From NCBI GenBank assembly GCA_016191015.1, contig JACPPM010000215.1, forward strand, positions 1 through 55,695: a stretch of DNA of 55,695 nt, read 5' to 3'. Positions 813-22,506 of this stretch are shown one piece after another. Made by a program: the position numbers and the translations under genes. Every line of letters starts with the position of its first letter. Positions within the stretch are counted from its first letter, which is position 1. The stretch is from Acidobacteriota bacterium (GTDB lineage: Bacteria; Acidobacteriota; CAIWXX01). The notes beneath the pieces were generated by a model. The model ran no database searches. It was not told where the DNA came from and saw only the letters and a list, made by a program, of their open reading frames with translations.

Positions 813-2390
813 ATGTCATCCAGGGGCGGAATCCTGGTCGTGGTCGCCAGCCTGTGCGCGGCCGGCTTGGCGCAGCCGGCCGATCCATGGTTCATCACCT
901 CCCCCGTGACCGTGTCGACTCCGATGGAGGTCGGTGATGTGATCGTGGCGAGCGGCGGATCGTTGGTCGTGACGGGCGTGCCCGAACCCGGCTTCCGCGT
1001 GACCGGCAACCTCGTTGCCGGCGGGTCCGGACAGATCCGCCTTCAGGGCTCGGTGATCCGTTTCATGAGCAGATACCACGGACAATATGCGCTCATTGCC
1101 GCGGAAAACAGCTCGATCACGGTGGCAGGTTGCGACTACCGCGTGCCGGGCGCGGTCCAGCACGGCCTGGTTGCGATCGGCCAGGGTGTCGTTTCAGTGC
1201 GAGACACGGACTTCGACGCGGTTCAGCTCGTGGCAGCGAAGACCGCAACCTTGCGCGCCGCGCGGCTCACCGGGAATTTCGAGGTCATCATTCAGGATGA
1301 GGCTCACGTGGACCTCCGGGACATCCCGCGCACGGGGGGCCAGGGCGCGCTGTGGGTATGGCCAGAATTCCCGTCGGGGAGCGTTGCGACGTACACTCCG
1401 CCGCTCCCCGGCTACATCGAGCGGTGGTCGTTTCCGCCCGCCGGCTCGACCGGCATCGAACAGACATGTGCTCTGAAGCGATGCCAGGTGCTGCTCTGGC
1501 CGATGCTGGCCCGGCCCGGCTGCGATCTCACGCTGCTGGATATCCCCTCCGAGAATTGGGTCGTGGTGGGCTTCCGCGTCCCGAGCTCACAGACGATCAA
1601 GGGGCTGCAGAATGGGATGAGCGTGGAGGACGAAGAGCTTTCCCTGACAGATCGCCGGGTCCGCCTGGTGCGAGCGACGATCGACACCTTCAACATCTAC
1701 ACGCAGAAGAAGGCGCGCGTGACCGTGCGGGATTCGACGATTGGCGAGCTCCTCGCGATGGACCAATCGACGGTCCTGTTGCGAGACGTGCTCGTCGACG
1801 GGAGCGGCGGCTATTTCGGAGCTTTGGACAGATCGACAATCGACGCCGAAGACTCCACATTCACGTGCGACGTTCAGGCCTCCGGCAACGCCACAATGTC
1901 TCTCCATCGCTCGAACCTCCTTCCCTACCCCCAGGACCCGACCGGCGCCTACACTCGCTACGGCGCCTTCGACTCTGCACGATTGCTGCTCGATACATCG
2001 CCCGTCTCGACGACCGCGGCGCTCGGCGGGCGCGGACTGATTGCCGCCTGCTGGATCGCCAAGCCGCCGAAGGAGCCGCCGGCGGCTGGCACCGTCCTGA
2101 CCCTGCGCGGGACTGCGGTGCAGTACTCGCTCGACAGCACGGTCGTGCCGGGACTATGGCGTCTCGAAGCCATGCCCGTCACAGGCGGACCACGCACAGC
2201 GCTCGGCCAAGGCAACGGCAATATTCAGAATGGCGCCCTCGGTACCTGGACGGATGCTGACCCCGCTTCGGATTACCAACTGCGGACGATCCTCATCGAC
2301 GCCCTCGGCCGTACGCTCACCGGCCGGCTCACCATCCCTCGCGCCGAGCCGCTCACGATGCCCAGCCCCTCCACCGTCGCTCACCGCTAG
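813..2390 (+). CDS. Secreted right-handed beta-helix-like protein
   Basis: A 525-residue protein with a probable signal peptide (residues 1-20, hydrophobic core GILVVVASLCAAGLA). The body consists of short Val/Ile/Thr-rich strands ending in Asp/Ser turns, for example SVRDTDFDAV, VTVRDSTIGELL and STIDAEDSTF, as in right-handed parallel beta-helices. No catalytic motif is recognised. The frame stays open upstream to 441, but that part is hairpin repeat F, so the ATG at 813 directly before the signal peptide was chosen; no strong ribosome site is seen. The stop is TAG. It could be a surface or polysaccharide-binding protein; function unknown. Confidence 0.7.
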   Translation: MSSRGGILVVVASLCAAGLAQPADPWFITSPVTVSTPMEVGDVIVASGGSLVVTGVPEPGFRVTGNLVAGGSGQIRLQGSVIRFMSRYHGQYALIAAENSSITVAGCDYRVPGAVQHGLVAIGQGVVSVRDTDFDAVQLVAAKTATLRAARLTGNFEVIIQDEAHVDLRDIPRTGGQGALWVWPEFPSGSVATYTPPLPGYIERWSFPPAGSTGIEQTCALKRCQVLLWPMLARPGCDLTLLDIPSENWVVVGFRVPSSQTIKGLQNGMSVEDEELSLTDRRVRLVRATIDTFNIYTQKKARVTVRDSTIGELLAMDQSTVLLRDVLVDGSGGYFGALDRSTIDAEDSTFTCDVQASGNATMSLHRSNLLPYPQDPTGAYTRYGAFDSARLLLDTSPVSTTAALGGRGLIAACWIAKPPKEPPAAGTVLTLRGTAVQYSLDSTVVPGLWRLEAMPVTGGPRTALGQGNGNIQNGALGTWTDADPASDYQLRTILIDALGRTLTGRLTIPRAEPLTMPSPSTVAHR

Positions 2391-2540
2391 CGGCCGCTGC
2401 TCGATCGAATCGTCCGAGATCCCGCGATAAGGCGACATCTGCTTCATCGTCTCCCTCGCTATGGTGCTCACGCATCAGGGCGCCCGTGGCGCCATCCTCT
2501 CGCGCGTTGACACCAACCCATCTCGTGGAAAACAACCATC

Positions 2541-2632
2541 TAAGAAAACCCTTATCTACGTGCTCGCGGTTCTTGCCCTTTTTCTCAGGATCATCGGGGC
2601 GCGTCGTGCGAAGATGTGGGCGTAGGGAGGAG
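2541..2632 (+). promoter_or_regulatory. Conserved leader with TAAG-N6-CTTA inverted repeat (copy 1)
   Basis: About 92 bp before the gene at 2639 align with 6703-6793, upstream of the gene at 6960. Both begin with the inverted repeat TAAG-N6-CTTA (2541-2554 here), continue with GTTCTTGCCC and CTCAGGATC, and end in GATGTGGGCG or GATATGGGCG followed by a purine-rich GGGAGGAG stretch. Conservation in a non-coding leader suggests a shared regulatory site; the binding protein is unknown. Confidence 0.5.
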
Positions 2633-2638
2633 ATCGCA

Positions 2639-4030
2639 ATGATGACCAGATCGATAGCGCATCCGGTATTCTTGCTGCTGATTTCGGGATTGTCAGCTGA
2701 CACGCAGTGCATCGCCGCTGGCGCCGCGAAGCTGGTGCAGCCCGCGGATTTCGTCTACATGGGGGCTTTCCGCCTCCCGGGAGGGACGAATCGGCCAAGG
2801 ACATTCGCCTACGGGGGAAACGCGATGACGTTCAATCCCGCGGGAGACACCACGGGGCCGAACGACGGGTACCCCGGGTCGCTCTTCATCGCGGGCCACG
2901 ACCGCCTCCCATATGGCGAGCTCCCAAATGGCGGGCAGGTGTCAGAGGTCACGATTCCGGTGCCTGTGATCTCGAAAAAGCTGAAACCACTGCCGCGTGC
3001 CGCCTTCCTTCAGCAGTTTCAAGATGTGGCGAAGGGTTTCTTTCCAGGAATGGACGAGATCCCGCGGATGGGCATGCAGTACCTGAACACGCCGGCAACA
3101 GGCCCCAAGATTCACCTGACATGGGGGCAGCACTTCGAGCCTGAGCCGCCGACAGGCACCCATGCCTGGTTCGACCCAAACCTGAAGGCACCTGCGCTGC
3201 AAGGGACGTGGTTCATCGGGAACGAATCCTTCTACAGCGTGAACGACTACATGCTCGAGATCCCGAAGAGCTGGGCCGACAAGAATGCGAAGGGTCGATC
3301 TATCGGAACAGGGCGCTACCGAGACGGCGGCTGGTCCGGCATGGGGCCCACGCTTTTCGCTTACCGCCCCTGGATCGACAACACAGGAACCCCGGCCCCG
3401 TCCGGAACGCGCCTGGCCGAGACTCCGCTCCTGCACTATCAGAGCTCGGAGAACACCGAAAACATCGAAAGATGCCTCAACACCTATCAGCACGCCGACG
3501 AGTGGGCAGGTGGAGCGTGGCTCACAACGAGCACCGGCAAGACCGGGCTTCTCTTCGCAGGAACAAAAGCGACAGGAAACAAGTACTGGTACGGGTGGGT
3601 CAACCCGGACGGGCCCGAGCAGCCGTGCATCGAGGAGGAGCTGATCGGTCAGTTCACCTTGTGCCGGCTCGCAGATGGCACGCCATGTCCGGACAGCGAT
3701 CTCGTGGAGTGCGCGGGGCACAACGACTATCGCGGGTGGTGGAGCGCGCGCTTCGATGCCCAGCTCATCCTCTATGATCCGGCGGTGATCGCCCGTGTGG
3801 CAGCCGGCAAGCTTGCAACATGGAAACCACAACCCTATGCGGCTCTCGACATCGACGACGCGCTCCTGCTCAACCCCGGCAAAGTCGAGCAGGAGATGCT
3901 GGGGACGGGAGTCCAGCGCAGATATCGAATCGGATCGGTGACCTACGACCGCGATCACGATCTGCTTTACGTGCTCGAGCTCTTCGCCGACGGCACCAAG
4001 CCGGTGATCCACGTCTGGCGGGTGCGCTGA
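2639..4030 (+). CDS. Secreted protein of unknown function
   Basis: A 463-residue protein starting MMTRSIAHPVFLLLISGLSA, a clear signal peptide, with GGGAGGAG ten bases before the ATG. The mature part begins with the phrase DFVYMGAFRLPGG and is rich in Trp, Tyr, Pro and Gly (WYGWVNPDGPEQP, NDYRGWWSARFD), suggesting an extracellular beta-propeller or lectin-like fold. It contains eight or so Cys residues, several in the CIEEELIGQFTLCRLADGTPC segment, compatible with disulfides. The frame is open to 2486, but the conserved leader lies there. Convergent with the regulator at 4051-6366, 20 bp apart. Function not recognised. Confidence 0.75.
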   Translation: MMTRSIAHPVFLLLISGLSADTQCIAAGAAKLVQPADFVYMGAFRLPGGTNRPRTFAYGGNAMTFNPAGDTTGPNDGYPGSLFIAGHDRLPYGELPNGGQVSEVTIPVPVISKKLKPLPRAAFLQQFQDVAKGFFPGMDEIPRMGMQYLNTPATGPKIHLTWGQHFEPEPPTGTHAWFDPNLKAPALQGTWFIGNESFYSVNDYMLEIPKSWADKNAKGRSIGTGRYRDGGWSGMGPTLFAYRPWIDNTGTPAPSGTRLAETPLLHYQSSENTENIERCLNTYQHADEWAGGAWLTTSTGKTGLLFAGTKATGNKYWYGWVNPDGPEQPCIEEELIGQFTLCRLADGTPCPDSDLVECAGHNDYRGWWSARFDAQLILYDPAVIARVAAGKLATWKPQPYAALDIDDALLLNPGKVEQEMLGTGVQRRYRIGSVTYDRDHDLLYVLELFADGTKPVIHVWRVR

Positions 4031-4050
4031 GCGCCTTTCGATACTCTCCG

Positions 4051-6366
4051 CTAGCGAGCCACGCTCGTCGAGGCAACAGCAGACCGCATCCGGACATAGG
4101 CTCGACAGAACGCCGGGCTCAGATGCCACGAGCTCTCCCGGATCGCGCTTTGATATGCAGCCGCTGCCTCGGCTCGCCTGCCGCTGAGCCAGTGGCGATC
4201 GCCGGCGTAGAGCGAGAGCATCTCCCGATGCATCGTGCCGCCGCTCAGGTAGTCGTCGATCGATGTGCGGCCGAGGAGCATTCCGGCCGTCTCGGCGACG
4301 CCCGGCGTGGGCGACTCGAGGGCGTGCGTCAGTACGTCATGTGCGCGAGTCGGCTGGCCCGCCTCCAGGTGCAAAACGGCCAGATCGAGTCGGTCCAACT
4401 CCTGCTCGAGGGCAGTTCCGTGAGGCGTGCGAATCTCATCGTCGAGGGCCGCAGCCGCCGCCTGCCTGTCCGCAGCGAGCCACTTCGCCAGGACGTCCCA
4501 TTCGCCGTAGAGGCGCGCGGGTAGGGGATCGCCTGGGAGATTCGTCAGGATGCGCTGTGCAGCAGCGGATGCCTCTCTCGCACGGCCCGCCACGCTGAGA
4601 ACCAGGGCCTCGCCCCACAGTCCCGTGAGCGAGAACCGGGGGTTGATCTTCTCGAACTCCCGTTGCATCTGCCCGTAGAGCTCCAGGGACCGGTCAAATT
4701 CTCCCCGCATGAACGAGACGAGACCGAGCAGGTGCTGGGCCTCATACCGTGGCTTTCCCGGCCTCTTGTGCTCGGTGAGGAAGGCGGCCAAGGCGGCGCG
4801 AAATCGCTCATCGTCGGGTTGACCTGCGGCGAGCTTGAGTGCCGCCCGCTCCACAACCAGCGGCTGGGACGCGAAGCGCTCGACGACAAACTGCTCCGTC
4901 TCAAGACATCGATCGATCTTGCCGGCGCGACGGAAAAGCGAGGCGACGTTCATGAGCTCGCTCGCGATTCCATAGAGCACGGCCTCGTCTGTCGCGATTG
5001 TGCGATAGTGGGCAAGGTGACGGTAGGCGTCGTCCATCGCGCCGGTTTCCGCCAGAGCACGGCCGATGCCGAGTCGCGCTACCGCCACGTACGCCTCCTC
5101 CGCCGCCGAGTCCTCGACCTTCCGGAACGCTTCCTCCGCCGCCGCATACTCGCCCATCGCCATCAGGCACATCCCCACTTTCGCGAACGCCTCACCGGCG
5201 AGGCGAGTGCCTGCGTGATCGCGCATCACCTGCTCGTACTCACTCCGCGCCGTCTCATATTCACCCCGGTCGAAGAGCCTGTCGCCGACAGCAGTAGGCG
5301 ACACCAGGCTGGGGATGCGCGACCGGCTGATCCGAAGATTGTCAACCCTGAGAATACCGTCGTAGGTACCGATCCGCACTCTGCCATGTTCGGCCGGATT
5401 CAGCGGGATCGGATCCTGATACCTGATGACCGTGGCTCCATCGATGGACATTTCCAGCAAGTCTCGCCGTCGTTCGATCGTGACATGGTAGGGATGATCG
5501 GGTTCAATCTGGCTCATAAGAGAGACCGCCACCTCCATCCCATTCCGATCGATGGCCGCCACGCGGTAGTCGGCTCCAGCCCCGAGGTAGTACCCCTCCT
5601 GCACCTCGGCCGCGTCGCGGCACAGGAAGACAGCGATCTCCCGCTTCGGGCTCGCCCGCGGTACCACCGCATCGAGCTCGATCCGCACCTCTCCTCCGAA
5701 ATGCTGCATGACGTCGATGTTGACGAACCCGCTTCCCTCGCCTCTGAGTGCCCCGTAGGCGAGCCCCCAGCGGCCTGACAAGACGCCGTAGCTCGGACCC
5801 ACCTCCGATCTCTCGAAGTCGTCCGAGAACACCTGAACCCAGCTCTCATCCCGCCTCCCCTCCCCGCTCGTCAGGATCACGATCGTCGCGACAATCGCGC
5901 TGCACAACAAAAAGAGTGAAGCAACCACGAGAAGGCGGCGCCTCGATCTCACCGGCTGTGCCGATTCAGCCGTCGCCGCCCGCTCGGCGGCCCGCTCAGC
6001 CGTCGGCTCGGCCGTCGGCTCGGCCGTCGGCTCGGCCGCCGGCTCGGCCGCCGGCTCATCCTCCACCATCGCCGCCCGTTCCCCTTCCCACCGATATCCC
6101 TCGCCCCGGACTGTTCGGATCAGATCCGATCTCTCGCCGAGGACCTTGCGCAGCTCGGAGACCTGGAACGTGAGCGCCTCCTCGACCACAGCCACATCCG
6201 ACCACAACTGATCAAGGATGTTCTGCCGCGTCAGGATGCGGCCGGGGTTCTTGAGGAACAGGAGGAGAAGATCGCTCATCTTCGGCGTCAGGCTGATCAC
6301 GCGCTCGCCCTGGACGAGGCTTCGGCGCGCAGGATCGAATCTGAAGCCGTCAAAAACGTATGTCAC
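4051..6366 (-). CDS. ToxR-like membrane regulator: winged helix, TM, LamG-like sensor and TPRs
   Basis: A 771-residue protein from the GTG at 6366. Residues 1-100 are an OmpR/PhoB-type winged helix (LTPKMSDLLLLFLKNPGRIL, then the recognition helix and the RTVRGEGYRW wing). A low-complexity linker of AEPA/AEPT repeats follows, then one membrane helix (LLVVASLFLLCSAIVATIVI). The outer part has a concanavalin/LamG-like beta-sandwich (FSDDFERSEVGPSYGVLSGR to VDNLRISR), then about ten TPR-like helix pairs to the end. Topology implies cytoplasmic DNA binding and periplasmic sensing. The frame extends to an ATG at 6510, but that stretch does not resemble the family. It lies between two genes with a shared leader (2541, 6703), its plausible targets. 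Confidence 0.85.
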   Translation of the reverse strand: MTYVFDGFRFDPARRSLVQGERVISLTPKMSDLLLLFLKNPGRILTRQNILDQLWSDVAVVEEALTFQVSELRKVLGERSDLIRTVRGEGYRWEGERAAMVEDEPAAEPAAEPTAEPTAEPTAERAAERAATAESAQPVRSRRRLLVVASLFLLCSAIVATIVILTSGEGRRDESWVQVFSDDFERSEVGPSYGVLSGRWGLAYGALRGEGSGFVNIDVMQHFGGEVRIELDAVVPRASPKREIAVFLCRDAAEVQEGYYLGAGADYRVAAIDRNGMEVAVSLMSQIEPDHPYHVTIERRRDLLEMSIDGATVIRYQDPIPLNPAEHGRVRIGTYDGILRVDNLRISRSRIPSLVSPTAVGDRLFDRGEYETARSEYEQVMRDHAGTRLAGEAFAKVGMCLMAMGEYAAAEEAFRKVEDSAAEEAYVAVARLGIGRALAETGAMDDAYRHLAHYRTIATDEAVLYGIASELMNVASLFRRAGKIDRCLETEQFVVERFASQPLVVERAALKLAAGQPDDERFRAALAAFLTEHKRPGKPRYEAQHLLGLVSFMRGEFDRSLELYGQMQREFEKINPRFSLTGLWGEALVLSVAGRAREASAAAQRILTNLPGDPLPARLYGEWDVLAKWLAADRQAAAAALDDEIRTPHGTALEQELDRLDLAVLHLEAGQPTRAHDVLTHALESPTPGVAETAGMLLGRTSIDDYLSGGTMHREMLSLYAGDRHWLSGRRAEAAAAYQSAIRESSWHLSPAFCRAYVRMRSAVASTSVAR

Positions 6367-6539
6367 GTCAAGTCCACCGTTCCAGAGTCGGACGCGCCGG
6401 CTCGTCCCTCCAGCCGCTTCTTCCCGCTGTGTGATCTTCCCCACCGGGAGCCCGACCCTCTCCCGCGGGAACCTCTGCAGATTCTCGCACAAGAGGCTCT
6501 GCTGAGACAAAGAGGCAGTCAGGTCTTTCGGGGACTCGT

Positions 6540-6660
6540 CCTAACGCGGCGGAGCCGCAGCCAAGCAGCGCGGGCTTATGGGCATGTTGTCTCACCGCCG
6601 AGGCGCGGAGTGCGCAGAGGGGTACTGCTTCTCTGCGTCCTCGGCGTCTCTTCGGTGAAC
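6540..6660 (+). repeat. Hairpin-array element E (CGCAGAGG-type)
   Basis: Left end hairpin TAACGCGGCGGAGCCGCAGCC-like at 6541-6562, similar to the inverse of 49315-49338. Arms: 6591-6620 (CCGCCGAGGCGCGGAGTGCG and on) and 6631-6660, its degenerate complement (CTCTGCGTCCTCGGCG). A diverged form of the end motif (GCATGTTGTCTCA) sits at 6582-6594. It belongs to the same architectural family as elements A-D but with a different unit. Confidence 0.65.
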
Positions 6661-6702
6661 AGGTTCTTGCCATTTCGTGTCAGCGCTCGACTCCTCAGAC
6701 AC

Positions 6703-6795
6703 TAAGGAATCTCTTAGGCACTCGGGCGCTGTTCTTGCCCGTTTGCTCAGGATCTTTGGAGCGCGCCGCGCGATGATATGGGCGTGAGGAGGATG
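6703..6795 (+). promoter_or_regulatory. Conserved leader with TAAG-N6-CTTA inverted repeat (copy 2)
   Basis: Second copy of the leader found at 2541-2632. The inverted repeat is at 6703-6716. The copy ends in GAGGAGGATG at 6786-6795, where a 29-codon open frame starts (6793), but the recognisable secreted gene starts only at 6960. The interval 6796-6959 holds a second GC-rich inverted repeat (CCGCCGAGGTCGC and its complement around 6833-6870) and no convincing gene. Confidence 0.45.
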
Positions 6796-6959
6796 TTCTT
6801 GGCGGACACCTCCTCCGGCAGTTCTCGCTCTACCGCCGAGGTCGCAGGGCCGCGACCTCGGGCGGTCGAAGCAGGGGGGTGATCGAAAGGGAGAGGAGTC
6901 GTTTGTCTGACCTTGTGATCGCAAATTGACCGCAATGAACGCACTGAGAGGAGTCAACA

Positions 6960-7490
6960 ATGAAGTGCAATTCTTTTCTCGCAGTATCGGGTGCCGTCAT
7001 TCTCATTCTCGGCCTGGCGCATTCGGCGCAGGCACAAAGCCTCTGGACCAGTGTCGCGTCCGCGTGCACAGTGGACGATTCGGATCTGAGCGACTGGGTG
7101 GCCACCTACAGTCATGTCGGCTTCAAAACGGGCGCATCGGGCTACCTCGCCCTTCGGTACAACGTGACAAACCCGGAGGATGACGGTAGCAACACAAACT
7201 GGTTCCGCCTGTATGTCACCTACAGAGATCCCGACGGCACAGGCACAGGCAGCCGTGTTCGCGTCTTCCTGAGAAGGACCTCGAGATCGAGTGGATCGGT
7301 CTCAACGATCGCCACATTCGACAGCAACACGTTCACCACCACGGGGACTCAGACCCAATCGGTGAACTTCTCGCACACGTGGAACTTCTACGACTACTAC
7401 TACTTTCTGGAGGCTGAGCTCTATCGGACCACAGGGTCGACGGCGGATGTGAAGACCGTAGGATACGCACTCCAGCAGTCGCTCGAATGA
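6960..7490 (+). CDS. Small secreted beta-rich protein of unknown function
   Basis: A 176-residue protein with signal peptide MKCNSFLAVSGAVILILGLA ending near AQAQS. The mature part is rich in Ser, Thr, Asp and Tyr with alternating hydrophobic residues (YNVTNPEDDGSNTNWFRLYV, FSHTWNFYDYYYFLEAELY), suggesting a single secreted beta-sandwich domain. The ATG has GAGAGGAG seven bases upstream. It lies under copy 2 of the TAAG-N6-CTTA leader, so it is probably co-regulated with the gene at 2639. No family recognised. Confidence 0.75.
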   Translation: MKCNSFLAVSGAVILILGLAHSAQAQSLWTSVASACTVDDSDLSDWVATYSHVGFKTGASGYLALRYNVTNPEDDGSNTNWFRLYVTYRDPDGTGTGSRVRVFLRRTSRSSGSVSTIATFDSNTFTTTGTQTQSVNFSHTWNFYDYYYFLEAELYRTTGSTADVKTVGYALQQSLE

Positions 7491-7651
7491 AAGTGGAGCC
7501 ACGGCGAGGTCAATAGAAACGGGTGCGAGTGACGCCGGGCGGGCCGGATGGCTCGCCACGGCGTCGCTCGACCAACAGGTGTGACATGAATTTGCCGCCG
7601 CCGGCGGTTGTCGGGTGTGCCGAGCCTGCCAGAGTGGCCCGATGCCGTGGG

Positions 7652-9308: not shown

Positions 9309-9614
9309 AACACACGGCACGCTCATCGGAGCGGATGCGCCGACGCCGCAGACGACGGTGCGGCCGCGCCCACGGCGTGGGCAGGGGCAAGAGAAGTCAC
9401 GAGGACGAACAACCGATTCATTTCCATCTCCAATTTCGAGTCGCGTACATCCTTCGAGAATTCAGATCGGCTGGAAGCGTGCCAGGCTCATCTCCGCCGC
9501 ATGGCCGGTGCGCCGACACTGCACCTACCGGATTCTTCATGTGCGGCTGGCTTGTGCGCGTTCCTGATCGATTGGATCACGGGCTCGATTATCCGGGAAT
9601 CGGAGGTGGAGCCT

Positions 9615-10240
9615 CCGATTGTCCTCGAGAAAGCCGGCCTTAGCTTCATCGTCGTGGCTCACGCCCGTGTGAAGCTCCTCGATGACGGCCAGGCTTTTGC
9701 GAAGGGACAGAAGCGCCTGTTCCCGCATGCCGAGCTGTCGCTGAATGACGCCCATCCCGTATGCCGCGGCCTATCGCACGCACTCATTGCCAGTCCGAAT
9801 GGAATCGTCGATCTCCAGATGCCCGCACTAGAGCGCCTTCTTCGCATCGCCGAGCAGCGCGAACATCCGGCCGAGATCGCCGAGCGTCAGGCTGAGATAT
9901 GGCAGACGGATCTCCTCGCCTATGTCTCTCGCCCTGATGTAGCAATGCAGAGCGGACTCGTAGTCGGCCAGATCGAGTTAGATTTCGCCGGTGATGCCGA
10001 TGTCATCAGCCAGGGCGCGTCGATCTCCGATCTCTTCCCAAATCGCTTCTGCCCGCTGGTGATAGGGGAGAGCCTGGGTGTTTTCACCATTGCGTCCATG
10101 CACAAGTCCGATACCGGCGAGCGCCCATGCGGGCCGGACACCGGTTGGTTCCTCCATCACGCGCAGGAGGGTCCGAGCCTGCAGCGCCTCGCCCCTGCAC
10201 CGGGCGCATGCCACCAGGTGCTCGCGGACTGCGCGACTAC
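9615..10240 (-). pseudogene. Decayed anti-sigma/TPR-CHAT fusion remnant
   Basis: Reading the minus strand from 10240, the zinc-finger segment VREHLVACARCRGEALQART and RVMEEPTGVRPA matches the anti-sigma factor at 16465-17376. At about 10125 it jumps in frame to WALAGIGLVHGRNGENTQAL, which matches the TPR part of the CHAT protein at 13500-16445. After about 9980 the frame shifts several times but still matches (MGVIQRQLGMREQALLSLRK to KAGFLED). Everything in between and the CHAT domain are lost. Clearly a deletion derivative of a second copy of the sigma/anti-sigma/CHAT module. Confidence 0.85.
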
Positions 10241-13499: not shown

Positions 13500-16445
13500 T
13501 TACAGCGCCTCCCCGATCAGAACGAATGGCGCCCAGTAGATGGGATGCTCAGCGATCACTTTGCCCGACGGTGTTCGGAGCTTCTTAGCGCGCAACTGTG
13601 AGATCATGTCCATCTGAGCCGCGCGAAGGGCTGCAGCCTTGCCGCCGCCCGGGGTCTTCAGAACCGAATAGAACTTCTCCATCTCGGCCGTCGCTACGAG
13701 GTCGGCCACACGCCACAGGCTGACGATGACGCTGGGTGTTCCCGCATAGAGGAAGGCGCGGCTCAGACCGATCACACCGTCACCGTTCACCTTGCCCAGG
13801 CCGGTGTTGCATGCGGAAAGAACCACGAGATCGGCGTGCAGGTCCAGGTTGAACACCTCTCTGGCGGTGAGCCGACCGTCCTCGGGCGGTGCCGGCGCCA
13901 GAGCGAGGAAGCTCTCCAGCGGGAGGTCGTCGCGGATGACGCAGTGCGTCGCGAGATGAATCATCGTCTGCTGCCCCGCCAGCTCCCTCACCTGTTGCTC
14001 TCCGGCCTGGGTCCCCGTCAGCTCGATCACGTTCGTGGACGGGAACAGGCGGCCGATCGCCCGGGCTTCGGCCTCGGCCCCCGGGAGCGGCGGAAACGGC
14101 TCGTCGGCCCACGGCAGGCGAGGCATCGCGGGATTCCCGACTACAAACAGGTGGGGGTCCTCCCGGTGGATGACTCGAGCCTTGCCGGCGGCCGTGTACC
14201 TGAGCACGCTCATCGCCGGGCTGTAGTGGATCGTGTGTTGTTCGATGAGATAGCGGCCGTTCTTGTCGAGAAGGGCGGCAAACGAGACTAGAAACAGAGG
14301 CCCGTGAGGGATGACGGTGACCAGTGCGTGAGGGTTGTTCGGGAGAAAAGCCTCGATCGGCTGGATCAGGAGCTGGTGCAACCGCCTGAGGACGGCCCGC
14401 GGGTCCTGCCCAGCGCCGGCGCCACGGCTCGGCCTTCCCGCCCTATCCGCACCCTTCGGCGCTTCAGCCACCTCCCAGGCCCCGACATCGGCCTGCATGA
14501 CACCGCGCATCTCCCGGACGAGATCATCGAGCTCGCGTCGGGTTATCGCGGAGGCAGCGACATGCAGATCGCCGCCGGGCCTTGAAACCCAGATGAAGAG
14601 CCTGTGTTCAGTGACGAAATACTCGACGACAGTGATTTCGCGGTGGCGTGCGTCATCCAGAAGCTGAGTGATCGGCTGCGGCTGCGCCTCAACGAGGCTC
14701 GCCAGCTCCACGCCCTGTGTCCTCAACTTCCCGATTTCCGCCCTGACGATCTCCTGTCCCCTCATGGCAATCTCGCCATCTTCGGCGGCGGTCGATGCGG
14801 CGAGCTGTGTCTGGGCGGAGGGCCGCTGACTCGCCACGGCGGTCATCGCGTCCTGCGGTGACACGTGGAGCTCCCTGGCCCGGAGGAGATCGAGAAAGGC
14901 GCGAGCGCGCGCACGCTCAGCCAGGTCCAGCGCTTCCTGCGCCCGCCCGAGCTCAATCAGCAGATCGATAGTCTCCGCAAACACAATCTGCTTGTCCTCG
15001 AGAAAGCCGGCCTTGGCTTCATCGTCAGGGCTGACACCTGTGCGAAGCTTCTCGATGACGGCCAGGCTTTCGCGAAGGGACAGAAGCGCCTGTTCCCGCA
15101 TGCCGAGTTGTCGCTGAATGACGCCCATCCTGTAGTCCGCGACCCATCGCATGCCCTCATTACCGGTCCGGATGGAATCCTCGATCGCCTGCTGCCCGTA
15201 TGAGAGCGCCTTCTTCGCGTCGCCGAGCAGCGCGTACACTCGGCCGAGATTGCCGAGCGTCAGGCTGAGATATGGTAGGCGGATCTCCTCGCCCATGTCT
15301 CTGGCCCTGATGTAGCACCGCAAGGCAGAAGCGTAGTCGCCGAGGTCGAGGTAGATGTCGCCGGTAATGCGGATGTCATCCGTCAGCGCTCGTCGATCCC
15401 CGATCTCTTCCCAAATCGCTTCTGCCCGCTTGTGATAGGGGAGAGCCTGCGTGTTTTCACCATTGCGTCTGTGCACAAGTCCGATTCCGGCGAGTGCCCA
15501 TGCCTCTTCGCGCCGGTCGCCCGCCTGCTGCCTGGACAGCAAGTACTGCTGGTAGCACTCGACCGCCTTCCCGGGCAGACCCTGCAGTCCGTAGACCAGG
15601 CCCAGGTGACGGAGGGCCCTTGCGCGCCCGGACAAGTCCTTGCCGAGCTCCGCCAGCTGCAGCGCTTGACGGAAGTGGGCAAGAGCTTCCTGGTAGGCCC
15701 CCTGGAAGCAGTATGAGAGACCGACGTGGATGCAGGAGACCGCTTGTCCACGCAGATCCCCCAGCGCCTCGTAGTTCCGGAGCGCCCGCAGATAATAGTC
15801 GATGGCTTGCGTATAATGGAATTTGTCGCGGTAGAGGCTGCCCAAGCTCTCGAGACTCCGGCTCTGCAGGGTGAGATCTCCGGCCGCCTCGGCAACCTGC
15901 AGCGAGCGCGCGTAGTGCTCGAGAGCCTGGTCATAAAGACCCTGCTTGAAGTAGACCTGCCCGATGCGGCGGCGTGTCACGGCTTCGCCCTGCAAATCAC
16001 CGGTCTCGGTTTCAAGGGCGATGGCTTGCAGGTGATAACGGAGAGCCTCTCCGTAGTCCGCACGACCCCAGTAGCAGTGGCCGATCCCGGTGAGGATCAT
16101 TGCCTCGAGTGCAGCGTCGCCGGCCTCCCGCGCCAGCTCGAGCGCGCGGCGGTGCTGGGCGCCGCCCATCGCGAGGTCCCCACGGTCGTTCGACAGGATG
16201 CCGTCATAGAGGAGACACTTGGCTTCGATCCGCGGGTCCTTCAGCTCCCGCCCGACTCTCCGCGCTTCATCCAAATCGGATCGAATGCGTACAAAATCGC
16301 GCTCTTCGAAGGTCCTTTCGACTTCTGTCAGCAGTGCTTCCGCCCGTTTCCTTGATTGCTCTGAATCGGACGCCACAGCAGAATTCACGCATGCCGAGAT
16401 CCAGAACGCCCAGATCACTCGGGTTCCGGACCGTCGCCAGCCCAC
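13500..16445 (-). CDS. Exported TPR-CHAT caspase-like protease
   Basis: A 981-residue protein from the GTG at 16445, preceded by a strong GGAGGAGG and 19 bp after the anti-sigma stop. A signal peptide (residues 1-25, TRVIWAFWISACVNSAVA) predicts export. Residues about 60-480 are TPR pairs (EALRYHLQAIALETETGDLQ, ALAHFRQALQLAELGKDL). The C-terminal third is a CHAT domain with the catalytic pair His834 (IHLATH) and Cys879 (LSACNTG) and the terminal HPIYWAPFVLIGEAL. CHAT domains are clan CD cysteine peptidases. Last gene of the sigma/anti-sigma/CHAT operon, it could process the periplasmic tail of the anti-sigma factor; that is inference. The frame is open to 16673 but overlaps the upstream gene there. 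Confidence 0.9.
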   Translation of the reverse strand: MGWRRSGTRVIWAFWISACVNSAVASDSEQSRKRAEALLTEVERTFEERDFVRIRSDLDEARRVGRELKDPRIEAKCLLYDGILSNDRGDLAMGGAQHRRALELAREAGDAALEAMILTGIGHCYWGRADYGEALRYHLQAIALETETGDLQGEAVTRRRIGQVYFKQGLYDQALEHYARSLQVAEAAGDLTLQSRSLESLGSLYRDKFHYTQAIDYYLRALRNYEALGDLRGQAVSCIHVGLSYCFQGAYQEALAHFRQALQLAELGKDLSGRARALRHLGLVYGLQGLPGKAVECYQQYLLSRQQAGDRREEAWALAGIGLVHRRNGENTQALPYHKRAEAIWEEIGDRRALTDDIRITGDIYLDLGDYASALRCYIRARDMGEEIRLPYLSLTLGNLGRVYALLGDAKKALSYGQQAIEDSIRTGNEGMRWVADYRMGVIQRQLGMREQALLSLRESLAVIEKLRTGVSPDDEAKAGFLEDKQIVFAETIDLLIELGRAQEALDLAERARARAFLDLLRARELHVSPQDAMTAVASQRPSAQTQLAASTAAEDGEIAMRGQEIVRAEIGKLRTQGVELASLVEAQPQPITQLLDDARHREITVVEYFVTEHRLFIWVSRPGGDLHVAASAITRRELDDLVREMRGVMQADVGAWEVAEAPKGADRAGRPSRGAGAGQDPRAVLRRLHQLLIQPIEAFLPNNPHALVTVIPHGPLFLVSFAALLDKNGRYLIEQHTIHYSPAMSVLRYTAAGKARVIHREDPHLFVVGNPAMPRLPWADEPFPPLPGAEAEARAIGRLFPSTNVIELTGTQAGEQQVRELAGQQTMIHLATHCVIRDDLPLESFLALAPAPPEDGRLTAREVFNLDLHADLVVLSACNTGLGKVNGDGVIGLSRAFLYAGTPSVIVSLWRVADLVATAEMEKFYSVLKTPGGGKAAALRAAQMDMISQLRAKKLRTPSGKVIAEHPIYWAPFVLIGEAL

Positions 16446-16464
16446 GCGACCTCCTCCGTGCTCC

Positions 16465-17376
16465 TCAGCGGGACGCCGGCATTCTCGCAAGCACTTCCTG
16501 TCGGAGCTGCGCAGCCTCTGCGCGACGCGCGCCAGGCGCGGCGGACAGTGCATCCAGCTGTTCGAGTGCCTCGGTGGGCTGACCGTGCTTGAGGAGTGCG
16601 ATGGCGAGATACCAGCGAGCCCCTGCAACCAATGCACCCTCGCCGGTCTTGATTGCGGCTCGAAGCGGCGCAACGGCCTCGGGGGTCCTGCCGAGCATCA
16701 GGAGCGACACGCCGCGATAGAAGTGCGCTTCCGCTTCCCCAGGGTTCCTCGCCAGGAGCTCGGCCAGCCTCCGTTCGGCCTCGGCGAAATCGTCCCGCTC
16801 GTAAGGCTCCATTGCCAACGGCAGCGTGCTCTGCGCCTCGGGCGCCTGCTTGCCGTCTCGGTAGGACATCTCGTGAGGGCCTGCAACCGGCGGGGAGTAT
16901 TCAGCCTTTGCGACCACGAGATCCCGCCATGGATTCGCAGCGGGCGCGCCCGATGCGACCGCCGCCGCCGCCGCCGGTGGCTTCGAGGAACGCGCTTGCT
17001 GTACCGGCTGGATCTCGACTCGATGCGTTCGCCAAAAGAGAAACGCGATGCCGATTCCGAAAACGACCATCGCAGCGGCAGCCAGCAGGAAGGGTGTTCT
17101 CTGTACTCGAACCCATGAGATCTTCGGGAATCGCGCGGGCCGGACACCGCTTGGTTCGCTCATCACTCGCAGGAACGCCCGCGCCTGCGTCGCCTCGCCC
17201 CTGCACCGGGCGCATGCCACCAGATGTTCTCGGACGTCGGCAATCTCCGCCTCGTCGAGCCGGTCGGAATAGAAACCGAGCAGTTGATCGCCCATCAGAC
17301 AGCCAGCGGACGAGGGTTGGGTGTGCCTCGCGATGGCCTTCCGAACCCAACTCAGCATCGATTTATCGTCGATCAT
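16465..17376 (-). CDS. Membrane anti-sigma factor, zinc finger plus periplasmic TPR tail
   Basis: A 303-residue protein. The ZAS-type zinc-binding motif has Cys26, then His51-x3-Cys55-x2-Cys58 (REHLVACARC). One membrane helix follows at about 89-112 (PFLLAAAAMVVFGIGIAFLF). The outer part has a Pro/Ala-rich linker, then TPR-like helices from about 195 (AEAHFYRGVSLLMLGRTPEA, ARWYLAIALLKHGQPTEALE). The start ATG overlaps the sigma stop (ATGA), so the two are translationally coupled. It should hold the sigma factor at 17373-17957 inactive in the cytoplasm and sense or bind partners outside through its TPRs. A degraded second copy of its zinc finger lies near 10200. Confidence 0.9.
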   Translation of the reverse strand: MIDDKSMLSWVRKAIARHTQPSSAGCLMGDQLLGFYSDRLDEAEIADVREHLVACARCRGEATQARAFLRVMSEPSGVRPARFPKISWVRVQRTPFLLAAAAMVVFGIGIAFLFWRTHRVEIQPVQQARSSKPPAAAAAVASGAPAANPWRDLVVAKAEYSPPVAGPHEMSYRDGKQAPEAQSTLPLAMEPYERDDFAEAERRLAELLARNPGEAEAHFYRGVSLLMLGRTPEAVAPLRAAIKTGEGALVAGARWYLAIALLKHGQPTEALEQLDALSAAPGARRAEAAQLRQEVLARMPASR

Positions 17377-17957
17377 TGGCTCTCCTCAGGCTCGGTCTTG
17401 AGCACTCGCCGCAAATTCGCCTTCGCCAGCACCAAGTGGTTGCGCACCGTATTGAGACTCAGCCGCAACGTCTCGGCGATCTCCTCGTACGAGAGCTCGT
17501 CCCGCACGCGCAGCACGAGGCACTGCCGTTGCTGTGGAGGGAGTTGCTCGATCGCGGTCCAGACAGATTCGATCACCTGATCCTCGATCGTTACCTGGTC
17601 GGGCGGGTCCTCAGGGGTGTTCGGATCGCCCGCCAGATCGAGCGGGACCGTGTGCCCCGTTCCTTTCAATCTCCCCGACGCCGTGATCATGGCATTCCGG
17701 GCGATCGCAAAGAGCCACCCCATGAAACTCTCTTCGCACTCGAGGCTTCTCACACCTTGAAAGACATTGGCCAGCGTAGTCTGTACCAGGTCTTCGGCGT
17801 CGCTGCTGCCAAACCCGTGAAACTGGAAGTACTTCAGCAGGCGGCTCCGGAGATGCTCGTCGACAACCCGGAAACTCTCCTCAACCTCGACTCCCGCCCT
17901 CAGATGACGCACAGCTTGGGAGAGCTCCTCGTCCGGGCACAGTCGCGTCCGCTCCAC
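17373..17957 (-). CDS. ECF-type RNA polymerase sigma factor
   Basis: A 194-residue protein with region 2 (LLKYFQFHGFGSSDAEDLVQ, TTLANVFQ, ESFMGWLFAIARNAM) and region 4 (IEQLPPQQRQCLVLRVRDEL, SYEEIAETLRLSLNTVRNHL). Starts with GTG at 17957; the Shine-Dalgarno is weak. First gene of the sigma/anti-sigma/CHAT operon. Four GGTAC-N17-GTCT sites upstream of neighbouring secreted-protein genes are its most likely targets. No matching site is seen before the sigma gene itself; a GGAAC at 18002-18006 on the minus strand lacks a GTCT 17 bp on. Confidence 0.92.
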   Translation of the reverse strand: MERTRLCPDEELSQAVRHLRAGVEVEESFRVVDEHLRSRLLKYFQFHGFGSSDAEDLVQTTLANVFQGVRSLECEESFMGWLFAIARNAMITASGRLKGTGHTVPLDLAGDPNTPEDPPDQVTIEDQVIESVWTAIEQLPPQQRQCLVLRVRDELSYEEIAETLRLSLNTVRNHLVLAKANLRRVLKTEPEESQ

Positions 17958-18100
17958 CGCGGACCGCTCGCGACGTGGAAATGCCGATCGCCACTTGAAC
18001 GTCGGTTCCTCCCTTGAACTTCTGGGATGCCCAGTTGTTGGACAACTTATAGAACGGAATCAGGAGGAATTCAAACGGACGGGCGGCGATACCAGTCACT

Positions 18101-18126
18101 GGTACTTTCATCTCCCCGCCCTGTCT
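18101..18126 (+). promoter_or_regulatory. Putative ECF promoter GGTAC-N17-GTCT (site 3)
   Basis: GGTAC at 18101-18105 and GTCT at 18123-18126, spacer 17 bp, 53 bp before the GTG at 18180. The whole leader from here to the start codon is nearly identical (about 90 percent over 75 bp) to 20008-20084. It lies in the divergent region between the sigma operon and the beta-helix gene. Confidence 0.75.
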
Positions 18127-18179
18127 TGGTGTGTAGATCCCGGTGGAACGTCAGATGAACGGGTCAGAGGAGGTCGAAC

Positions 18180-19961
18180 GTGAGCAACATCCGGATCAGG
18201 CAGCGGTCCTCGCGCAAAACATCGCTCGTCGCGCTGCTGATGACGGTCGGCTCCGTCTTGCCTGCGCCGGCCCAAAGCGCGCCCGTGCTCTATTTCTCGG
18301 ATGTCACGAGCGGACCGAGGAGCGGCAACTCGGACAGTTCGGCGGGGCTTCCGCCCGGGCAAAACGGTGCCATCGTGACCGTCTGGGGCACCGGAATCGG
18401 CTCCAGCCGCGGCACCAGCAAGATCTATTGCAACGGTGCCGAGGCCCCTTCTTATTACTACTGGGGCAACGCCACAAAGCCGGCGAATCTCTACGCCTCT
18501 CATCGCATGCAGATGATCTCCTTCCAGGTGAGCGGCAGCGCACAGAATGGAAGGGGTGTCATCTATGCCGTCGTGAATGGCCAACAATCGAATACGCTCC
18601 CTTTCACAATCCGATCTGGATCGATGTACTTCGTCAAGACCTCGGGCAGCGACGCGACCGGGGATGGCAGTTGGACTCTTCCTTGGAGAACGATCGGGAA
18701 GGCAGTGGCGAGCCTGGCGAACGGCGACATCGCATACGTGGGAAACGGGGTGAGCCAGACGACTGCAGGCGAGTACGACGCGGCAGTGAATCTGGGTTCC
18801 AGCGGCACCGCCGACAACCCCAAGGCGTTGATTGTGTATCCAGGTGCCACCGCGAAGGTTGGCAACCCCAAAATCTATCGTGCCTTCCACAGCTGGGGGA
18901 CGGGCACCGGTGGGTACGTGCAACACTGGGTACTCTCGAAGTTCTCCATCACTACCAAGGTGGTGGGCGTGTTCGCGAACACAGGTTTCAGGGTCGTGGG
19001 CAACCGTCTTACCGGCGCCAAGACGAACGAAGGCATGGAGGGGACCATCTACGCCATCGGCAGCGACCTCTATCTGCTCGGCAACGAGCTAGGCAACATC
19101 GGGACCGCTCAGTCCAACGATTCGAAGCTCCAGCACGTCATCTACGTGACGGGTGTCAGGCAGGACGAAATGCCGCGTGCTCCGACGGAACGGACCCGGG
19201 AGATCGCTTGGAACTACCTCCACGACAACTACGTCAATCGGGGAATCAACATCTACAGCGAACAAGACGGCTCGGCATATATCCAGCAACATCGAATCCA
19301 TGACAACGTGATCGTCAATCAGCGTGGCGACGGAATACTCGTTGGCTACTACGTCACCGCCGAGAACTGGATCTATAACAATCTGATCGTCCGGGCAGGC
19401 CTCGGCCCCGAGCTCGACAACCCCTCGACACATGCCGGCATCCAAATCGACACCGGCCACGAGAGCGTTCCGAGAACGAAGACGATCATTCATTGCTACA
19501 ACAACACGCTGTACGGCTGCGGCTTCTCCGGCGCCGTCTATGCCGGTGAGAACGGCGCTCTGTTCATTACGTCCTCCGCCACATCCCGAAGCACACTGCG
19601 CTTCGCCAACAACATCGTGGTCTCGACCGGTGAACCTTACCTCGCCGGCGACAGCGGCATACCCACATCCGGTGACTACCGGGGCTGCTGGTTCGGAGAT
19701 GGCGCGGCACCGCGGTGGGACGAAGGGGCGATCAACGCCGACCCACAGTTCGTGAGCGCGGCGTCGAGAGACTTCCAGCTCCGATCGACAAGCCCGTGCC
19801 GCGATGCAGGGAAGGATGTTTCGAAGACGGTCGCCCGGGACCTGCTCGGTGTGCCGCGCCCGCAGGGGAGCGCCTTCGACCTGGGGGCGTACGAGCTCCG
19901 CCCGGCTCAGGGCTCCGGCTCTCACGCGCGACGGAAGTCGCCGCGGAACCGGGAGAATTGA
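18180..19961 (+). CDS. Secreted IPT-like domain plus right-handed beta-helix protein
   Basis: A 593-residue protein from a GTG with GAGGAGG upstream. Signal peptide: TSLVALLMTVGSVLPAPAQS. Residues about 35-145 resemble an IPT/TIG-type Ig fold (GAIVTVWGTGIGSSRGTSKI, FQVSGSAQNGRGVIYAVVNG). From about 150 a beta-helix of the pectate-lyase superfamily type starts with MYFVKTSGSDATGDGSW and PWRTIGKAVASL, continues with HDNYVNRGINIYSEQDGSAY and YNNLIVRAG, and ends with DFQLRSTSPCRDAGKDVS and FDLGAYE. Likely a surface polysaccharide-active or adhesive protein; catalytic residues not assigned. Promoter site 3 puts it under the ECF sigma factor encoded divergently. Confidence 0.85.
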   Translation: MSNIRIRQRSSRKTSLVALLMTVGSVLPAPAQSAPVLYFSDVTSGPRSGNSDSSAGLPPGQNGAIVTVWGTGIGSSRGTSKIYCNGAEAPSYYYWGNATKPANLYASHRMQMISFQVSGSAQNGRGVIYAVVNGQQSNTLPFTIRSGSMYFVKTSGSDATGDGSWTLPWRTIGKAVASLANGDIAYVGNGVSQTTAGEYDAAVNLGSSGTADNPKALIVYPGATAKVGNPKIYRAFHSWGTGTGGYVQHWVLSKFSITTKVVGVFANTGFRVVGNRLTGAKTNEGMEGTIYAIGSDLYLLGNELGNIGTAQSNDSKLQHVIYVTGVRQDEMPRAPTERTREIAWNYLHDNYVNRGINIYSEQDGSAYIQQHRIHDNVIVNQRGDGILVGYYVTAENWIYNNLIVRAGLGPELDNPSTHAGIQIDTGHESVPRTKTIIHCYNNTLYGCGFSGAVYAGENGALFITSSATSRSTLRFANNIVVSTGEPYLAGDSGIPTSGDYRGCWFGDGAAPRWDEGAINADPQFVSAASRDFQLRSTSPCRDAGKDVSKTVARDLLGVPRPQGSAFDLGAYELRPAQGSGSHARRKSPRNREN

Positions 19962-20007
19962 CATGACCAGATCGAGAGCAGATCGGATATCACGCATGGC
20001 ACTCCCT

Positions 20008-20033
20008 GGTACTTTCATCTCCCTGCCCTGTCT
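20008..20033 (+). promoter_or_regulatory. Putative ECF promoter GGTAC-N17-GTCT (site 4)
   Basis: GGTAC at 20008-20012 and GTCT at 20030-20033 with 17 bp between, 51 bp before the ATG at 20085. It lies after the stop of the beta-helix gene, so the propeller gene has its own promoter although it follows in the same direction. Confidence 0.75.
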
Positions 20034-20084
20034 TGGTTTGTAGATCCCGGTGGAGCGCCGGATGGACCGGCCAGAGGAGGCAAG

Positions 20085-22046
20085 ATGATGTTGTTCAGGA
20101 CGAGAACTTCAGGTCGTTTGTTCCTGGTTACGATGTTCGCGGGGGCAGCCTTCCCGGCTGTCTCGCAGGCCTCGCACCAGTGGGCGCGAGTGATCGGCGG
20201 GAGCGGGAATGAAGCTCCGTACTCGGTCCAGCAGACGAGTGACGGTGGCTACATCCTGGCGGGGTACACATCGGGCAGCTTCGGAGGTGACCAAAACGTG
20301 TGGCTGGTGAAGCTGGATTCGTTAGGGAACATCTCCTGGCAGCGGACTTTCGCAGGTGGAAGCGGCTCGGAATCGGGAGGTCTGGTCCGGCAGACGGCCG
20401 ATGGTGGATATTACCTGGCATGCTACACGCCGGCTCTTGGCAACGGCGACGAAGCCTGGATACTGAGGCTGGACTCCGTCGGGAGTGTTTCCTGGCAGAA
20501 AACCTACGGGGGGACAAGCACGGAATCGATCTTCTCGTTGGAGCCAACGAGCGATGGGGGGTGTGTGTTCGGAGGTTACACGAGGAGCTTCGGTTCGGTT
20601 GACAACAATGCGTGGGCGGCCAAGCTCTCCTCAAGCGGCACTGTCGGCTGGGCAAAGAGAAGATACATCGGATCAGGACAACAACCCAGCGGATACCAAC
20701 TGCAGACAAGGACGATTGCACCAGACGGGAGTGGGGGGTACGCGACACTGGTCGAGGTTCAGTCTCCCGGGGGTGGAGGGTCCGTGCTGTTTCAGCCTCT
20801 CGATTCGAACGGGGTCATCAGCGGCACCAAGCATTTGATCAGTCTGGGCACTTCCGCGCGCCCTCGGGCAATGGACAGATCCGGCGACGGTGGTTGGTTT
20901 ATCTCAGGGATTGTGTCGGTTTCCGGCAATGGCGATGACGGGCTCCTGATGAAACTGAATTCAACCGGCAGCCCAGTGTGGCAGAAACACCTTGGGGGAC
21001 AGGGCACCAGCTACTTCCTTGACGGAAGATCGACGCCGGACGGCGGGTACGTGGCCGTCGGAGAAACAGAGAGCCCCAGTGACGGGAGCTCGGACGTATG
21101 GGTCGTGAAATTCAATTCTTCGGGCGGTGTCGAGTGGCAGAAAACATACGGCGGCGCGGGCACTGACGTGGGACGCGCGATTGGCCGAACAAGCGACGGC
21201 GGCTACATCGTCGTTGGCGACAGCGGATCTTTTGGCGGTGCCGAGGAAGTGCTCGTTCTCCGGCTCTCGCCGACCGGAGAGATCGACACCTCGTGCGGGG
21301 GATTGGTTGAGACAGCTGCTCAGCCCTCAGCTGACCTGAGCGCCAGTGATAGCACGAGCTTCACCAGTTCCGTCTCCGACACCGCCGTCACGGTCGTCAC
21401 CCCCACGTACGTCATGAACAACACGAATGGTGCCGACACGACTCTGTGCACCTCGTCCTGCCAGGTGAGCTGTTCGGCGACCGTGCCGGCTTCGGGCGTC
21501 GTAGGGATCGCGGCGAATTTCTCGAGCTCTGCTACCCTTGTGGATTGCGGCGGCGCTGTCGCCTATTCATGGGCGTTCGGCGACGGTGGCACGTCAAGCG
21601 AACAGAACCCCGCCTACGCCTACGCCGCTCCCGGAACATATCCGTGGACCCTCAATGTCACGGCGCCCGGTGCCAACGCGTGCTCGCAATCGGGCTCAAT
21701 CACGATCTCATCAACAGCCGTGCCGGATCTGACGGGTGCGTGGACGAGTGTGAAAAAGAAGAAGAGCAAGGTAAACGCGACCTTCTCCTGCCAGAACATC
21801 GACCTCGGGGAGGCCGCGAGCTTCACGGTCAAGCTCTACTTTTCCAGGAAGTCCACGCTCAGCAAGAAGTCAAAGCTCATCAAGACTCAGATCGTCTCAT
21901 CGCTCGCGGCCGGAGGCGTCCTGCCGATCGCCTTCAAGGCGACCCCCCCGAACAAGCACAAGTACCTGATCGCGGTGGTGGACCCGGATGGAGCGGTCGC
22001 TGAGGCGAACGAGGGCAACAACACGATTGTCCGGGCAATGCCGTGA
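20085..22046 (+). CDS. Secreted delta-60-type propeller with PKD and CARDB-like domains
   Basis: A 653-residue protein with signal peptide (RLFLVTMFAGAAFPAVSQAS). About seven to eight blades of about 50 residues follow the pattern QTSDGGYILAGYTSGSFGGD, WLVKLDSLGNISWQRTFAGG. Residues about 465-545 are a PKD domain (YSWAFGDGGTSSEQNPAYAY). The C-terminus is Lys-rich (SVKKKKSKVNATFSC) and ends in a CARDB-like Ig domain (YLIAVVDPDGAVAEANEGNN). The start has AGAGGAGG upstream; two adjacent ATGs are possible. Intact relative of the truncated gene at 11960. Likely a large cell-surface or released protein under the ECF sigma factor. Confidence 0.88.
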   Translation: MMLFRTRTSGRLFLVTMFAGAAFPAVSQASHQWARVIGGSGNEAPYSVQQTSDGGYILAGYTSGSFGGDQNVWLVKLDSLGNISWQRTFAGGSGSESGGLVRQTADGGYYLACYTPALGNGDEAWILRLDSVGSVSWQKTYGGTSTESIFSLEPTSDGGCVFGGYTRSFGSVDNNAWAAKLSSSGTVGWAKRRYIGSGQQPSGYQLQTRTIAPDGSGGYATLVEVQSPGGGGSVLFQPLDSNGVISGTKHLISLGTSARPRAMDRSGDGGWFISGIVSVSGNGDDGLLMKLNSTGSPVWQKHLGGQGTSYFLDGRSTPDGGYVAVGETESPSDGSSDVWVVKFNSSGGVEWQKTYGGAGTDVGRAIGRTSDGGYIVVGDSGSFGGAEEVLVLRLSPTGEIDTSCGGLVETAAQPSADLSASDSTSFTSSVSDTAVTVVTPTYVMNNTNGADTTLCTSSCQVSCSATVPASGVVGIAANFSSSATLVDCGGAVAYSWAFGDGGTSSEQNPAYAYAAPGTYPWTLNVTAPGANACSQSGSITISSTAVPDLTGAWTSVKKKKSKVNATFSCQNIDLGEAASFTVKLYFSRKSTLSKKSKLIKTQIVSSLAAGGVLPIAFKATPPNKHKYLIAVVDPDGAVAEANEGNNTIVRAMP

Positions 22047-22098
22047 CACGAGGACGGAGACGTCATCCCGACGCTGGGTGGCTCCTTCTTCCGGAGGC

Positions 22099-22455: not shown

Positions 22456-22506
22456 CCTGGGCCTGAGGCAGACTTGACGCGCGACCGCCGTTGAGGCACT
22501 ATATCA

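Follow-up and report, generated by a model that had tools for sequence, protein, structure and literature searches.

A conserved leader element of exported-protein genes and a putative membrane-bound ToxR/CadC-like regulator in an uncultured Acidobacteriota lineage

The window, that is, the whole stretch of DNA that was analysed, comprises 55,695 nucleotides of an Acidobacteriota genome (assembly GCA_016191015.1, contig JACPPM010000215.1). Close to its beginning, two copies of a leader element (own1 and own2) accompany genes for secreted proteins, and the gene of a membrane-bound regulator lies on the opposite strand. The features discussed below are the following (R3 is a search model described further on).

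2540 to 2631, plus strand: leader own1, candidate promoter element of 92 bp; its GGAGGA end lies 7 bases 5' of the ATG at 2639; 80.2 bits with R3, whose training set contains own1
2540 to 2555, plus strand: box A of own1, CTAAG-N6-CTTAT, containing TAAG-N6-CTTA at 2541-2554
2571 to 2589, plus strand: box B of own1, TCTTGnC-N4-TnCTCAGG, delimited by column conservation in seven copies
2610 to 2615, plus strand: -10-like hexamer of own1, GAAGAT
2639 to 4030, plus strand: secreted protein gene 1, 463 aa
4051 to 6366, minus strand: membrane-bound regulator, with a winged helix-turn-helix domain (wHTH, residues 1-95), a linker, a transmembrane helix (about 146-165), a predicted beta-sandwich (about 176-352) and a TPR array
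6702 to 6793, plus strand: leader own2, candidate promoter element, divergent from the regulator and 166 bases 5' of the ATG at 6960; 78.0 bits with R3, whose training set contains own2
6702 to 6717, plus strand: box A of own2, CTAAG-N6-CTTAG, delimited by TAAG-N6-CTTA at 6703-6716 and by conservation
6733 to 6751, plus strand: box B of own2, delimited by column conservation in seven copies
6772 to 6777, plus strand: -10-like hexamer of own2, GATGAT, at the fixed spacing from box B
6960 to 7490, plus strand: secreted protein gene 2, 176 aa
7523 to 8647, plus strand: secreted protein with an FGE-sulfatase domain (PF03781, 9.7e-35), the second gene after own2; its true start may lie 3' of 7523

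The two leaders are identical at 70 of 92 positions without a gap, from CTAAG to GGAGGA, and the similarity ends at both edges of the element. The next best ungapped match to own1 in the whole window, on both strands, reached 44/92 (mean 23.6, sd 4.2). The inverted repeat TAAG-N6-CTTA was found at exactly two sites in the window, one in each leader, where 0.04 sites were expected, and none of 100 shuffled sequences carried two. A 34-base core likewise matched the window only at the two leaders and did not match any of 100 shuffles. The genes at 2639-4030 and 6960-7490 gave no match in Pfam or NCBIfam and, by eye, do not resemble each other; the product of each starts with a signal-peptide-like sequence. 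The preliminary description of this DNA, which reported two conserved leaders with this inverted repeat in front of unrelated secreted-protein genes, was therefore right in substance; it had placed the leaders correctly to within one base.

The window contains further repeated sequences. A second leader family, similar in layout, is represented in the region 16465-22046 by 18093-18173 and 20000-20080. These two stretches of 81 bp are 88% identical, and immediately 3' of them lie two different secreted-protein genes. Both leaders are divergent from the genes of an ECF sigma factor (17373-17957), of a protein with a weak zinc-finger match and TPR matches (16465-17376) and of a TPR-CHAT protein (13500-16589); the motif GGTACTTTC...GTCTTGG could be the ECF -35/-10 of this family. 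These are the only two strong copies in the genome, and none was found in the sister-genus genome introduced below. The 300-bp stretches 9614-9913 and 14987-15286 are 88% identical, and what resembles an incomplete copy of the TPR-CHAT gene occupies 9.5-10.4 kb. Moreover, dispersed intergenic repeat families occur at 14-76, 78-118, 275-337, 341-381, 599-735, 22089-22459, 49134-49173 and 49197-49295 and, as judged by eye, at 6598-6660, some of them having inverted arms with CGCAGATT-, ACCAAG- and ACATGTTGGTAAG-type units.

The preliminary description had proposed a genome scan for the inverted repeat, and scanning yielded a third copy in the own genome and four in a sister genus, all in front of genes with a signal-peptide-like start. 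The third own copy (own3, contig C195) appeared at first as a weak DNA match (E 7.5) and then reached 70 points with a two-sequence profile, as compared with 22 for the next best of the loci scanned. It ends with GGAGGG just 5' of an ATG; the secreted protein encoded there has 689 aa and contains FG-GAP-like repeats that score under the Pfam cut-off. Sequence-only models were then built from the three own copies (R1), from five copies (R2) and from six (R3). Among the 99 relatives searched, the only genome of the same family is G001, a metagenome-assembled genome of an uncultured member of the Acidobacteria belonging to a sister genus, and it holds the copies rel1 to rel4. Rel1 and rel2 scored 27.6 and 15.7 bits with R1, rel3 scored 14.0 bits with R2 and rel4 16.4 bits with R3, each being absent from the respective training set. 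These discovery scores are the unbiased ones, while a model necessarily gives high scores to the copies it was built from. By score alone, rel3 and rel4 are close to background; rel3 is supported by synteny, and rel4 by its own features only.

The genes downstream of the additional copies are also those of secreted proteins. The targets of rel2 and own3 are orthologs (363 of 687 aligned positions identical, 53%), and the target of rel3 (L125:1614-2693) is the ortholog of the FGE-domain gene of the window (59% identity over 287 aa), which in the sister genus follows the leader directly. Two target genes are thus orthologous between both genomes. Rel1 precedes a secreted TADGGYILAG-type repeat protein, in which the delta-60 and SBBP repeat models score under the cut-off, and rel4 precedes a secreted protein that by eye resembles alpha/beta-hydrolases and has no Pfam match at the cut-off. 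By a simple hydropathy rule, a signal-peptide-like start was found in 7 of 7 downstream genes; of the 41 crude gene calls made in the window, 13 have one by this rule.

With R1, 20 of the 99 relatives gave a match at E<=0.1; of the matches outside the own genome and G001, those in G071 and G089 were viewed as alignments, and three genomes of family f16 (G029, G042, G067) were searched again with R3. With R2, 8 of 396 genomes sampled from the phylum gave a match at E<=0.01, namely the own genome, G001 and six others, in which all matches were partial (17-24 bits). Several candidates were rejected as copies: G000:C51:24900-24942 in the own genome (13.3 bits, positions 28-70 only, without box A), G000:C214 (12.6 bits, gapped), G001:C122:9357-9398 (15.4 bits, inside an ORF), G001:C133:52827-52896 (12.0 bits, not recovered at E<=0.05) and G029:C82 (12.7 bits, requiring a 16-base insertion).

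These distributions bear on the origin of the leaders. A dispersed mobile or recombinogenic repeat could lie before such genes by chance, and the window does contain other dispersed families, including the similar-looking stretch at 6598-6660 just 5' of own2. However, only three copies were found in 6.43 Mb (349 contigs) of the own genome, all seven known copies lie in the same orientation 5' of a gene start, copies precede orthologous genes in two genera although the proteins have diverged to 53% identity, and the window copies lack similarity beyond the element. Such an origin is highly improbable, and the concern raised in the preliminary description, that the leader might be widespread or part of a transposed repeat, is not borne out by an element that is rare, uniformly oriented and kept at orthologous sites. 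It is more improbable still that a short open reading frame for a leader peptide terminates here and accounts for the similarity. In own1 and own2 the same frame reads VLA..LRI.GARRA..WA-stop; the two peptides are 55% identical over 29 residues, with some of the base differences being synonymous and the stop codon present in each copy. By eye, however, this stop is missing in own3, and in rel1 the frame is interrupted by a TAG shortly after box A; conservation follows DNA columns and not codons. A protein search of the own genome for further instances returned, apart from the copies in the window, only one weak match of 36%. A real, conserved cis-element appears to define a small regulon of exported-protein genes in at least two genera.

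The seven copies have a common anatomy. The distance between box A and box B is identical in all of them, and the invariant columns comprise AAG-n-A...CT of box A (where one A varies) and TT, T and C-n-CAGG of box B. In 7/7 copies a -10-like hexamer, whose second base is A and whose sixth is T, lies 26-27 bases after the start of CTCAGG, its spacing from box B being fixed within one base. Agreement of these hexamers with TATAAT is limited to 3-5 of 6 positions. When the bases behind box B were shuffled, the 7/7 placement of the hexamer was obtained in 0 of 5000 trials, a value which overstates independence because copies within a genome share descent. Rigid spacing is usual for promoters. Therefore, the gap-free spacing together with the fixed TATAAT-like hexamer in all seven copies indicates that the leader is very likely a promoter. 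A TTGACA-like -35 was not found at the leaders, and a consensus promoter scan of 2400-7600 reported none there, which fits a poor -35 that requires an activator and fits the absence of a promoter equally well. In the proposed layout, box A would be centred near -75 and box B near -40, followed by the -10 box and a putative start site just 5' of the Shine-Dalgarno sequence.

The same conservation might instead reflect a cis-acting RNA leader in the 5' UTR (a riboswitch, a thermometer or a protein-binding RNA), in which hairpin I (columns 13-28) and hairpin II (columns 42-65) control translation at GGAGG; this is a rather unlikely reading. With five sequences RNAalifold predicted both hairpins and with six it predicted hairpin I, the column pair 18/23 shows four standard pair types among six sequences, and most copies carry a Shine-Dalgarno-like sequence at the 3' end. 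On the other hand, single-sequence folds of four stretches were ordinary (z -0.55 to 0.14), the minimum-free-energy structures of the two window copies differ, and covariation was not clearly above shuffles, which equalled it in 65/500 cases for the score, 155/500 for double-change pairs and 27/500 for the percentage paired. Moreover, rel3 breaks hairpin II and rel4, by eye, the 18/23 pair; the spacing is almost free of indels; in several copies the start of the main ORF is more distant, by as much as about 170 bases; and the Rfam search of 2300-7000 gave four matches at E<=10, none of them at gathering score.

Returning to the promoter reading, the boxes themselves indicate how they may be recognised. 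When half-site A1 was compared with 95 windows, its best inverted matches lay at offsets 11, 32 and 44, which correspond to the other half of box A and to both halves of box B. This resemblance suggests that one protein reads both boxes. As an inverted repeat the halves of box A correlate with r 0.96, as compared with r 0.62 for a direct repeat; written as CTwAG-N6-CTwAG, the box equally allows an 11-base direct repeat. Direct repeats are a known binding mode of PhoB/OmpR-type domains. For ToxR and OmpR relatives, binding to direct repeats has been reported (PMC7496328).

The product of the divergent gene is a plausible candidate for such a protein. Its N-terminus matches the Trans_reg_C winged helix (PF00486, 1.2e-17) and Pfam also recognises TPRs. 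Against PDB chains, the wHTH matched PhoB (5.4e-9) and CadC (1.6e-7). One strong hydrophobic cluster was found at about 146-165 (best 19-mer, Kyte-Doolittle 2.84), similar in the two relatives of the protein described below, and no receiver domain family appeared in Pfam at E<=0.1. The earlier outline of a regulator with a winged helix, a membrane helix and TPRs is therefore confirmed by these matches. For its LamG-like sandwich the picture is mixed: a beta-sandwich is predicted and resembles galectins and CBM66, at low confidence. When residues 170-357 were modelled by themselves, the structure obtained consisted almost entirely of beta strands, with a mean pLDDT of 56.3, and this low-confidence model gave a best Z of 13.0 against galectins (127 residues aligned, 2.4 A) and CBM66 as top Foldseek match (3.7e-7). 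The full-length prediction of two sequences reached a pLDDT of 63.7, of low confidence outside the TPRs. In the sister-genus ortholog, Laminin_G_3 scored 0.004, under the Pfam cut-off. LamG, too, belongs to the concanavalin-like fold of these two groups. A ConA/LamG-like sandwich in the regulator is thus plausible from the models, and a glycan as its ligand is a guess.

Relatives that keep the winged helix and most of the rest of the protein were found only twice in the 99 genomes, as the G001 ortholog and as a paralog in the own genome:

L154:403-2733 (G000:C112): regulator paralog on a 7.3-kb contig

The ortholog is 50% identical over residues 1-762 and the paralog 42% over residues 1-682, with wHTH identities of 63% and 61%, respectively; in the 17-residue recognition-helix region, 15 residues are kept in G001 and 13 in the paralog. 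A search of genome contigs with the single regulator protein gave no relatives among 13 stretches, and one with an alignment of three regulator sequences gave two loci among 80 stretches, one of them G001. In G001 the regulator gene (L153:2650-4944, minus strand) is followed by rel3 (about 5106-5193) and by the FGE gene from 5219 on the plus strand. The order of regulator, leader and FGE gene is consequently common to both genera, the window interposing the 176-aa gene, and the genes around the regulator otherwise differ between the two genomes. By a rough estimate, four leaders in 5.4 Mb would place one within 300 bases of a given gene by chance in about 1 in 2,000 genomes. At L153:6184-6792, an ORF overlapping the end of the FGE ortholog contains, by eye, a fragment of the own3/rel2 gene family. 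No regulator gene was found in the 3-8 kb examined around each of own3, rel1, rel2 and rel4, and no leader on the 7.3-kb contig of the paralog, where the best match reached 5.1 bits with filters off. When the leaders of both genera were compared with the sequences at the starts of their regulator genes, nothing in common exceeded chance (score 17; shuffle mean 16.4, maximum 26).

The main rival to the divergently encoded regulator is another factor that recognises a real promoter element, such as the paralog, an unlinked regulator, or an alternative sigma factor of the ECF or another type; the regulator would then adjoin a leader only because the gene next to it is one more target. The wHTH of the paralog is similar enough that it could bind the same sites; moreover, a different leader family of the window adjoins an ECF sigma factor, and TCTTG occurs in both families. 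We consider this possible but unlikely, as the divergent placement of regulator and leader is kept in both genera despite differing surroundings.

We regard it as fairly probable, on what the sequences offer, that the membrane-bound regulator reads the leaders as activator-type promoters of a small regulon of exported-protein genes. From the element, its seven copies, their neighbourhoods, the synteny and the spacing, all of them observed, we infer the binding, the activation and the ligand. Boxes A and B would be the sites of the divergently encoded ToxR/CadC-like transmembrane protein, and, as no TTGACA-like -35 was found in the leader, transcription would depend on the bound regulator. The signal, perhaps a glycan, would be perceived beyond the cytoplasmic membrane by the sandwich-TPR part of the regulator, which would adjust the regulon in response. 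The circuit of regulator and leader suggested in the preliminary description is thereby upheld as regards the leader family before secreted genes and the divergent arrangement of regulator, leader and FGE gene kept in G001, and amended in that the element exceeds the inverted repeat and includes box B and the -10 box.

The general kind of system is known. Like other ToxR/CadC-like transmembrane one-component regulators (TTRs), the window protein has an N-terminal OmpR/PhoB-type wHTH, a linker, one transmembrane helix and a putative external sensory part, with no receiver hit. Unlike them, it has a predicted galectin/CBM66-like sandwich and a long TPR array outside, the operator halves look inverted and not direct, and its targets would be a set of exported-protein genes. 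In the class Acidobacteriae, TTRs are reported to be more numerous than average (PMC10269533). The ToxR site at ompU, TNAAA-N5-TNAAT, is reported to lie at -51 to -37 (PMC7496328); it resembles the leader in having a site near -40, the place proposed for box B, instead of a good -35, as well as more than one half-site, whereas its sequence differs and the leader has an extra inverted repeat near -75. The external part also has counterparts in PknD-type Ser/Thr kinases. In G029, an Acidobacteriota genome of family f16, the protein at L155:3925-7149 has the transmembrane helix, sandwich and TPR part fused to a Ser/Thr protein kinase in place of the winged helix, with regulator residues 140-761 aligning at 36% identity, and the NCBIfam PknD model matched regulator residues 235-415 at 5.1e-7, under the cut-off. 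Four f16 genomes carry the regulator residues from about 140 on without the winged helix, and R3 found no full leader in these four. A more far-reaching idea, which must be judged doubtful, is that of a membrane-tethered glycan-sensing activator dedicated to exported products, which would couple transcription to secretion in space and time, its sensory part having also moved onto a kinase in the related family to give two outputs for one kind of signal. In the open literature searched (titles and abstract openings), no description of this leader element or of a wHTH-LamG-TPR regulator was found, nor of the external part, operator and target set proposed here.

For membrane-bound regulators of the ToxR type, knowledge of target sites and regulons comes mostly from enteric bacteria and vibrios. 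Here, in a lineage of uncultured Acidobacteria, conservation by itself points to a putative operator, a promoter layout, a target set and a likely regulator, and binding, promoter and ligand thus become directly testable in a harmless host. The approach, in which shared promoters of unrelated exported-protein genes are looked for beside a divergent membrane-bound regulator, also provides a search route for other regulons of this type. Summarizing, the presented results suggest that a small control circuit sensing the cell exterior operates in two genera of this little-studied lineage of Acidobacteria.
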